Shown: piece after piece, positions 23,979 through 26,295 of the stretch | How the letters are laid out: each line of letters starts with the position of its first letter | How positions within the stretch are numbered: the stretch's first letter is position 1 | Source of the DNA: Burkholderiaceae bacterium | Lineage (GTDB): Bacteria; Pseudomonadota; Gammaproteobacteria; Burkholderiales; Burkholderiaceae | Length of the DNA: 64,000 nucleotides | NCBI GenBank assembly: GCA_947472645.1 | Contig: CANJBQ010000005.1 | Location: forward strand, 1 to 64,000 | Reading direction: 5' to 3' | Position numbers and translations under genes: made by a program | Notes under the pieces: model-generated | Told to the model about the DNA's origin: nothing | The model's database searches: none | Seen by the model: only the letters and a program-made list of their open reading frames with translations

Positions 23979-24012
23979 CAATATGATGCCCACCAACCAA
24001 GATTTAAGGTTA

Positions 24013-24103
24013 GTGAGCGCCGTTGCTAGACCCATTAGGGCCCCTCCAAGCCTGGGGTAACTGAGATATGCCATCTCAGTTATCCTCGCAACGCTCCTTG
24101 GAG
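24013..24103 (-). ncRNA. SAH riboswitch aptamer
   Basis: Minus strand: CUCCAAG-GAGCGUUGC-GAGGAUAACUGAGAUGGCAUAUCUCAGUUACCCCAGG-CUUGGAG-GGGCCCUAAUGGGUCUAGCAAC-GGCGCUCA. It shows the SAH-aptamer layout: GAGCGYUGC / GCAACGGCGCUC, CCAGGCU core, and the CUCCAAG/CUUGGAG pseudoknot. Located directly upstream of ahcY. Confidence 0.96.
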
Positions 24104-24113
24104 AATTTAAATA

Positions 24114-25280
24114 TTATAAACCGGCTGCTGATTTCAAGGCAATCACACGATCTCTTGCTTCCCAAGTAAACTCAGGCTCTTCTCTACCAAAATGGCCATA
24201 AGCTGCTGTTTTTTGATAAATAGGTCTTAGTAAATTCAACATTTTTACAATACCTTTTGGCCTTAAGTCAAAGTGTTCACTTACTAACTTTGATATTTGC
24301 TCATCAGAGATTTTGCCAGTACCATACGTGCTGACCATAACAGAGGTCGGTTTTGCAACACCAATGGCATACGACACTTGAACAAGACACTTCGTGGCTA
24401 GGCCTGCAGCAACAATATTTTTTGCCACATATCTCGCTGCATAAGCGGCCGAACGATCGACTTTAGAAGGATCCTTACCTGAGAATGCGCCACCACCGTG
24501 AGGGGCGGCGCCGCCATACGTATCCACAATAATCTTACGGCCTGTCAAACCACAATCTCCTTGAGGACCGCCAATAACGAATCTTCCTGTAGGGTTCACC
24601 AAGAAATTGATTGATCCTTTAATCAGCTCTTTCGGTAGGACGGGCTTGATAATTTCCTCAATGACAGCTTCACGCAAAGCTTTGAGTTCAATATCGGGCG
24701 AGTGTTGTGTTGATAAAACAACTGTGTCGATTGAATCAGGGCGTCCATTGACATAACGTAAAGTCACTTGTGACTTAGCGTCCGGTCTTAACCAATTAAG
24801 CCGTCCATCTCTTCTAAGATGAGACTGGCGCTCTACCAGGCGATGTGATAAGTAAATCGGCATCGGCATCAGCTCTGGGGTTTCATCAACTGCATATCCA
24901 AACATAAGGCCTTGATCACCAGCGCCTTGATCTAAAGGATCATCTTCAGCTTTGTTGACACCTTGAGCAATGTCGGGGCTTTGCTTGTCGTAAGCAACCA
25001 AAACTGCGCAACCACGGTAATCAATACCATAATCAGTGTTGTCATAACCTATTTGACGAAGGGTTTCTCGCGCCACCTTGATATAGTCCACATTAGCTGT
25101 TGTAGTGATTTCTCCGGCTAAAACAACTAAGCCTGTATTACAGAGGGTTTCAGCCGCCACACGTGCTGTTGGGTCTTGCTCAAGAATTGCATCAAGAATA
25201 GAATCTGAAATTTGATCTGCTACTTTGTCAGGATGACCTTCAGAAACAGATTCAGAGGTAAAAAGGTAATCATTTGCCAT
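24114..25280 (-). CDS. metK: S-adenosylmethionine synthetase
   Basis: [26 protein letters not shown] start at 25280 with upstream [21 protein letters not shown]. The 28-aa extension in the ORF track covers leader RNA elements. Confidence 0.98.
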
Positions 25281-25289
25281 ATAAGCTCC

Positions 25290-25319
25290 AAAAAAAAGTT
25301 CGACAACACGTGCCGAACT
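25290..25319 (-). terminator. Intrinsic terminator in the metK 5' leader
   Basis: Minus strand AGUUCGGCA-CGUGU-UGUCGAACU followed by a U tract of 8: a 9-bp stem including one G-U pair, ending 9 nt before the metK ATG. Confidence 0.88.
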
Positions 25320-25327
25320 ACCTATAC

Positions 25328-25384
25328 GGCGACGCTTTAGCAGTATTTTTGATTCGCCCTGCAAGTTGTCTTAACTCGGCGATA
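25328..25384 (-). ncRNA. SAM-II-like (SAM-alpha) riboswitch aptamer in the metK leader
   Basis: Minus strand UUAUCGCC-GAGUUAAGACAACUUGCAG-GGCGA-AUCAAAAAUA-CUGCUAAAGCGUCGCCG. P1 is UCGCC/GGCGA; the pseudoknot is GCAG/CUGC plus GAC/GUC. It keeps the UUAA...UUGCA...GAUNAAA...GCUAAA spacing of the SAM-II crystal-structure sequence as I remember it. Confidence 0.8.
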
Positions 25385-25404
25385 AAATAAGTATAACTCG
25401 GGTT

Positions 25405-26295
25405 GTGATTTTTATCAAACCTCCTCTTTTTTTGCATATCATAGAGGGAATGCATTGGCTTACTAACATCCTCGGTCACTTACCTCTTAGATATCTACAG
25501 TATGTAGGTTCTTTTTTGGGTTTATTAACCTACTGGTTTTCTGCAAGAGATAAAGAACTTATCTTAGAGAATTTGTCGTTGGCTAAAGGAAAATATCACT
25601 TTGAGGCCTCGCCAATAGAAGTGGCTAAGTCTGCTGGAAAGATGTTGACAGATAGTCTTTGGATTTGGAAACATCCAAAAAAATCTCTTGAATTAACGGA
25701 ACTCATCAACTGGGAAGTGGTCGAAAACGCTATCAATGAAGGTCGTGGATTACTCATGCTGACACCTCACCTCGGAGCGTTTGAAATGATTCCGCGTGTT
25801 TTAGCTGAACATTTTCCAGCCACGATTATCTATAAACAAGCAAAACAAAGATGGCTCAATACCCTAATAGAGGAAGGCCGCTCTCACCCTAGAATGAATT
25901 TTGTTCCAGCCAATATGCAAGGAGTCCGACAAATTGCACGAGCTCTAACACGTGGTGAAGCGGTAGGGATCTTGCCCGACCAAGTTCCCGGGAATGGTGA
26001 AGGTGTATGGGCATCTTTTTTTGGCAAGCCTGCCTACACTGCGGTTCTTCCAGCCAAAATTGCATTAAAAAACAATATTCCGACTATTATATTTTCAGCA
26101 ATTCGTAAGCCGCAGGGTAAAGGCTGGTCCATTTTTGCAACAAGGGTCACGGAACCCTTTGACGCTGATCCTCTTTTAGCGGCTGAGCAATTGAACCTTT
26201 TTTTAGAAAAACTGATTATTAAAGATCCTGAGCAATATTTGTGGATGTACAACAGATACAAACAACCTACCGGCGCCCCACCTCCAGAACGATGA
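25405..26295 (+). CDS. Lysophospholipid/lauroyl acyltransferase family protein (LpxL-like)
   Basis: LLMLTPHLGAFEM (HX4 D/E-type motif), ILPDQVPGNGEGVWASFFGKPAYT. GTG at 25405, or ATG at 25450, which would clear the metK leader. Confidence 0.85.
   Translation: MIFIKPPLFLHIIEGMHWLTNILGHLPLRYLQYVGSFLGLLTYWFSARDKELILENLSLAKGKYHFEASPIEVAKSAGKMLTDSLWIWKHPKKSLELTELINWEVVENAINEGRGLLMLTPHLGAFEMIPRVLAEHFPATIIYKQAKQRWLNTLIEEGRSHPRMNFVPANMQGVRQIARALTRGEAVGILPDQVPGNGEGVWASFFGKPAYTAVLPAKIALKNNIPTIIFSAIRKPQGKGWSIFATRVTEPFDADPLLAAEQLNLFLEKLIIKDPEQYLWMYNRYKQPTGAPPPER

Follow-up and report, generated by a model that had tools for sequence, protein, structure and literature searches.

A predicted SAM-II-type riboswitch, in a variant general in Burkholderiales, most likely closes the metK start site

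The leader of metK, which encodes S-adenosylmethionine (SAM) synthetase, appears to carry a riboswitch of the SAM-II type in the Burkholderiaceae genome from which we analysed a stretch of 64,000 nucleotides (the window). This variant is general in Burkholderiales and most likely closes the metK start site. We put the probability at roughly 80% that the leader is a SAM-II-type riboswitch exerting product feedback on SAM synthetase through start-site closure. An earlier note on this DNA had proposed a SAM-II-like aptamer at metK. Strong support for this proposal comes from covariation, from pocket residues that do not vary, and from conservation across the order.

SAM-II was described from alpha-proteobacteria, with some additional cases in Bacteroidetes and further proteobacteria (PMC1273637, PMC2258182). 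According to Leyn et al. 2014 (PMC4239095), SAM_alpha is confined to Rhizobiales and Rhodobacterales, a 'metXZ' element occurs in beta-proteobacteria, and beta-proteobacterial metK is under none of the known regulators, attempts to find an element having been unsuccessful. A metK-linked SAM-II in beta-proteobacteria did not turn up in a full-text literature search of partial coverage, which did not extend to the NAR 2017 survey of 224 candidate RNAs. In most Burkholderiales, among them Burkholderia, Bordetella, and Achromobacter, the metK element would supply this missing regulator.

Locus and aptamer architecture

The aptamer is single-copy in the window's own genome and lies between metK (25280-24117, minus strand) and a divergent acyltransferase-like gene (from 25405, plus strand). 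The leader comprises the following features:

24117-25280, minus strand: metK, S-adenosylmethionine synthetase, the gene putatively regulated by the leader (71-90% identity to named beta-proteobacterial MetK)
25390-25418, minus strand: candidate sigma-70 promoter TTGATA-17-TATACT (consensus match only, 10/12)
25331-25382, minus strand: SAM-II-type aptamer with P1, L1, pseudoknot P2a/P2b, and GCUAAAG core (from pairings in the sequence, covariation, and RF00521 alignment)
25378-25382, minus strand: P1 5' strand UCGCC, pairing with GGCGA at 25354-25358
25354-25358, minus strand: P1 3' strand GGCGA, pairing with UCGCC at 25378-25382
25371-25377, minus strand: L1 GAGUUAA, with U25374 and U25373 corresponding to SAM-II U11 and U12 and G25375 at the place of SAM-II U10
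25368-25370, minus strand: P2a 5' strand GAC, pairing with GUC at 25331-25333
25359-25362, minus strand: P2b 5' strand GCAG, pairing with CUGC at 25340-25343
25331-25343, minus strand: CUGCUAAAGCGUC, containing the P2b 3' strand, pocket residues U44, A45, A46, and A47 (25339-25336), and the P2a 3' strand (from covariation and the invariant pocket)
25276-25330, minus strand: predicted expression platform, GCCGUAUAGGU (25330-25320) pairing with GCUUAUAUGGC (25286-25276) when folded with the aptamer occupied
25290-25319, minus strand: nested, lineage-specific terminator-like hairpin (9 bp, 5-nt loop; stem-loop 25319-25297) with U-tract

Transcription from the candidate promoter is predicted to start at ~25383, approximately at the first base of P1, a promoter-to-P1 spacing reported to be usual for SAM-II (Corbino 2005, PMC1273637). 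The P1 and pseudoknot pairings named in the earlier note are all present on the minus strand and supported by covariation.

Covariation of the pseudoknot

The decisive evidence for the aptamer is comparative. MFE folding of the leader is ordinary compared to shuffled sequences (z -0.28), a value uninformative in either direction because the pseudoknot is not modelled in MFE folding. In 18 metK leaders, 97.2% of the P1 and pseudoknot pairs are standard, compared to 22-43% for slid-partner controls, and across 60 metK leaders of the order, in an alignment fitted to P1 and not to the pseudoknot, the predicted pairs are standard in 97.4% (slid controls at most 44.5%). Both sides have changed in 10 of the 14 pairs of this larger set. 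The number of cells changed on both sides was 94 compared to a shuffled mean of 29.8, a value matched by none of 500 shuffles, so the covariation across metK leaders that the earlier note had called for is borne out for P1 and pseudoknot alike.

The individual helices of the 60 leaders follow the same pattern. All six P1 columns contain both-side changes, and the P2a helix is 97.9% paired, likewise with both-side changes, e.g. in its first pair (GC in 49 leaders, AU in 8). In P2b, the third pair is GC in 29 and AU in 22 leaders and the fourth GC in 55 and AU in 5. Variants include GCAG/CUGC, GCGG/CCGC, and GCGA/UCGC in P2b and GAC/GUC and GAAC/GUUC in P2a, and an additional pair, C25365-G25335, is supported. 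Taken by comparison of leaders, these patterns show that the aptamer is real and more than a product of chance.

Ligand pocket

Twelve aptamer positions (U11, U12, U20, U21, G22, C23, G42, C43, U44, A45, A46, A47) are invariant in all 60 metK leaders, numbered according to what we take to be the scheme of the 52-nt 2QWY crystal RNA. The equivalents of the SAM-II pocket, i.e. U11, U21, U44, A45-A47, and the pairs G22-C43 and C23-G42, are all present in 60/60. In the SAM-II crystal 2QWY, U11 and U21 contact the sulfonium of SAM (PMC8525861). Pocket and gene together suggest that SAM is the ligand of the metK aptamer.

The clearest difference in L1 concerns position 10, which is G in 54/60 metK leaders (GAGUUAA type; U in the other 6/60) versus U in 34/36 aptamers of the metZ/metX type (GAUUUGA type) of the same order. 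This exchange might mark an altered specificity, with the SAM-II fold sensing another ligand such as SAH, or SAM and SAH alike, and relatives of the element do precede non-methionine genes for MATE transporters and MoxR-like ATPases. However, neither the two uridines that contact the sulfonium nor any part of the GCUAAA pocket varies, a SAM-synthesis gene is a usual target of SAM riboswitches, and SAM-II is reported to discriminate more than 1000-fold against SAH (PMC6914780); we consider a different ligand very improbable. A wider version, in which the metK type (GAGUUAA, G10) and its MATE and MoxR relatives would form a separate class of SAM-II fold with its own ligand preference, present in Burkholderiales and beyond and serving more than methionine metabolism, appears quite unlikely. 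That the leader is no riboswitch but a conserved structure recognised by a protein or sRNA is barely credible given that the SAM-II core matches position by position and that the metabolic context fits. The reading we prefer thus remains a SAM-sensing riboswitch.

Class assignment and known relatives

The Rfam model of SAM-II (RF00521) aligns to the leader over its full length, including CUUGCA and GCUAAAG, with 13.9 bits at a cut-off of 36. The E-value of 0.83 was computed for a 281-base stretch and 4227 families and, as it covers all of these, corresponds to ~2e-4 for one family named beforehand. The covariance-model search proposed in the earlier note therefore gave a divided answer, an end-to-end alignment with a score far below the cut-off, and the element is best described as a variant of the SAM-II type and not, by score, as a member of RF00521. 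Neither the metK leader of the window nor ten further metK loci contained any Rfam 15 family at its cut-off, and MicC, SNORD36, asX2, and isrF, which reached 9-17 bits in a loose-threshold scan, were taken as chance matches. The Rfam SAM-II model misses an order-wide group of elements.

With SAM-II (RF00521, SAM_alpha) the metK element shares the H-type pseudoknot of P1 and P2, an L1 with two invariant uridines, the UUGC and GCUAAA core, a promoter just upstream of P1, and a methionine/SAM gene downstream. It differs from SAM-II, apart from its low score, by L1 (GAGUUAA instead of GAUUUGA), a short P2a (GAC/GUC), linkage to metK, an anti-start-site helix as the conserved platform, and a P1-P2 loop whose length varies between a few and over 60 nt. 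The pocket of SAM-II is also found in SAM-V (RF01826), which acts on translation (PMC2704228, PMC9481103), but the last 3' pairing element (P2a), absent in SAM-V, is present and co-varying in the metK element. The SAM-V model had no match at the metK position in seven genomes (E up to 10), and we dropped this assignment. SAM/SAH riboswitches of Rhodobacterales likewise precede metK (PMC2864571), and SAM-VI of Bifidobacterium is tied to SAM synthetase (PMC6914780); both, however, have different folds, and neither had an Rfam match at the metK locus. The metXZ RNA element of beta-proteobacteria (Leyn et al. 2014, PMC4239095) occurs in the same bacteria and also combines a pseudoknot with methionine genes, but precedes metX/metZ and comes with terminators.

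Start-site helix and terminator-like hairpin

With the aptamer held occupied, the platform folds at -24.6 kcal/mol with a probability of 0.0 that the AUG is unpaired. The predicted helix starts directly after the pseudoknot, encloses the start codon, and closes over the Shine-Dalgarno (SD) region. In the window, it is the start codon that is closed; the SD itself falls largely within a bulge (P unpaired 0.73). By inspection, the same architecture is predicted genus-wide with different pairing letters, e.g. UUAGU/ACUAA, UCAAG/CUUGA, UAUA/UAUA, and others. Across the order, the mean energy of the duplex between the 22 nt following the aptamer and the start region of the same leader is -17.07 kcal/mol compared to -12.10 (sd 0.43) for permuted partners (z about -11.6; 0 of 20,000 permutations); similar leaders had been collapsed to 49 dissimilar ones for this comparison, which reduces kinship without removing it. 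These values amount to compensatory change in a helix masking the ribosome-binding site or the start codon.

A mechanism consistent with these pairings would be the following. At low SAM levels, the stretch directly following the aptamer (GCGUCGCC...) could base-pair with the P1/P2 strands, leaving the start region open. Bound SAM would lock pseudoknot P2 and release the post-aptamer segment, the freed GCCGUAUAGGU would pair with GCUUAUAUGGC over the start codon and the ribosome-binding region, and metK translation would stop. The ligand-free pairing between aptamer and platform has weak support from the comparison of own and swapped partners (z -2.3; 233 of 20,000). Its version restricted to the P1 strand, in which a downstream UCGCC copy would displace the P1 strand, is attractive but finds no support from covariation (z -0.5). 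Moreover, the fold preferred by RNAfold in the absence of ligand also has the start codon closed (-35.4, compared to -28.0 for the alternative), and an ON state could then only be kinetic; we assume that it is set during transcription, as proposed for other translational riboswitches.

The earlier note had seen the leader as a transcription attenuator, with a 9-bp terminator stem and U8 ending 9 nt before the ATG. These elements are in the sequence: seven T follow the stem (T8 if the last stem base is counted), and the distance from the end of the tail to the ATG at 25280 is 9 nt. Attenuation via this terminator (25319-25290) as the main action of a SAM-II-like riboswitch would agree with the position of the stem and U-tract between aptamer and ATG, with the terminator linkage reported as most common for SAM-II in alpha- and beta-proteobacteria (PMC2258182), and with the related metZ/metX-type elements, which do end in terminators. 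However, terminator-like hairpins occur in only 7/58 metK leaders, the start-site helix is the conserved and co-varying part, and a conserved antiterminator was not found among the metK leaders. The same hairpin is present at two further metK loci, L112 and the sister L113, with a kept but shorter U-tract in the former and a broken one in the latter, and the terminator-like sites of the region are near shuffle level (2 found, 1.7 expected). The fold with a GACAAC/GUUGUC antiterminator in the window has a less favourable energy (-23.1) than that with the terminator (-27.1), and GUUGUC was not seen in the other lineages read by eye; this antiterminator is therefore not claimed as a general mechanism. 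Of the attenuation proposal, the terminator thus holds for this leader and a few close relatives, but as the main mode of action attenuation seems unlikely. The scarcity of terminators and the co-varying start-site helix instead suggest translation control as the conserved mode with termination as a possible local addition. In this species, the terminator-like stem forms the apex of the start-site helix, and together with its U-tract it may add a second, transcriptional layer to start-site closure.

Distribution in Burkholderiales

Elements were counted with R1, a covariance model with P1 only, which matches the window at 25327-25387 with 80.6 bits (the window being among the sequences used to build R1). 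Within the same genus, it detects the element at 79/82 metK loci. Of the three loci without a hit, one lies on a contig that stops 37 nt upstream, and the other two are second metK copies; these copies (L192 in G063 and L193 in G008) are more distant, with 68% identity, and lack the element. Among the best 80 metK loci of named genomes, 36 have the element close upstream of metK (one truncated by a contig end), in Polynucleobacter, Burkholderia, Pandoraea, Caballeronia, Paraburkholderia, Cupriavidus, Achromobacter, Bordetella, Pusillimonas, Undibacterium, Herbaspirillum, Oxalobacter, Curvibacter, Comamonas, Methylibium, Inhella, Sulfuritalea, Accumulibacter, and others. In the same best-80 set, the model found no element at metK loci of Gallionella, Nitrosomonas, Methylotenera, Neisseriaceae, and gamma-proteobacteria. 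A model match was obtained in 223/300 Burkholderiales genomes, both subtypes (see below) counted. Judged from these genomes, the metK element is general in Burkholderiales and not a curiosity of one betaproteobacterium.

An SAH riboswitch (RF01057, 50.5 bits) is located at 24008-24105 on the minus strand, between metK and ahcY, which is followed by metF, and SAH riboswitches are likewise found at two further metK loci (L003 and L114). With a SAM-sensing metK leader and an SAH riboswitch at ahcY-metF directly downstream, the product and the by-product of methylation would both be sensed within a single gene cluster.

Subtypes and relatives at other genes

Two subtypes exist in Burkholderiales. 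The first has GAUUUGA ... CAGCUUGCGGGCGC followed by a terminator and precedes metZ, metX, or metH, while the second has GAGUUAA ... GACAACUUGC and precedes metK. In both, U11, U12, U20, U21, G22, C23, G42, C43, U44, A45, and A46 are invariant, and A47 is present in all but one row. SAM-II of the GAUUUGA type was observed before metZ, metX, and metH at several loci (L082, L084-L089, L097), mostly just below the Rfam cut-off. These GAUUUGA-type elements (25-45 bits) are probably the 'metXZ element' of Leyn et al. 2014.

Tandem SAM-II-type aptamers were found upstream of a MATE-family transporter (L083/L254, L200, L203, L216, L221, L240, L242, L250, L252, L257, L263), an unusual target for SAM. 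Usually the GAUUUGA type comes first and a metK-like aptamer second, with an orphan ORF of ~105 aa in between at some loci. Tandem SAM-II riboswitches with mixed platforms have already been described (PMC9481103). Further, single metK-like aptamers directly precede genes for MoxR-like AAA ATPases in other lineages (L208, L277, L289, L294); the protein of L208 was scanned against Pfam, and the other three were assigned by eye. Two aptamer-like matches of 47-51 bits (L295, L296) precede short ORFs in members of the same class outside Burkholderiales.
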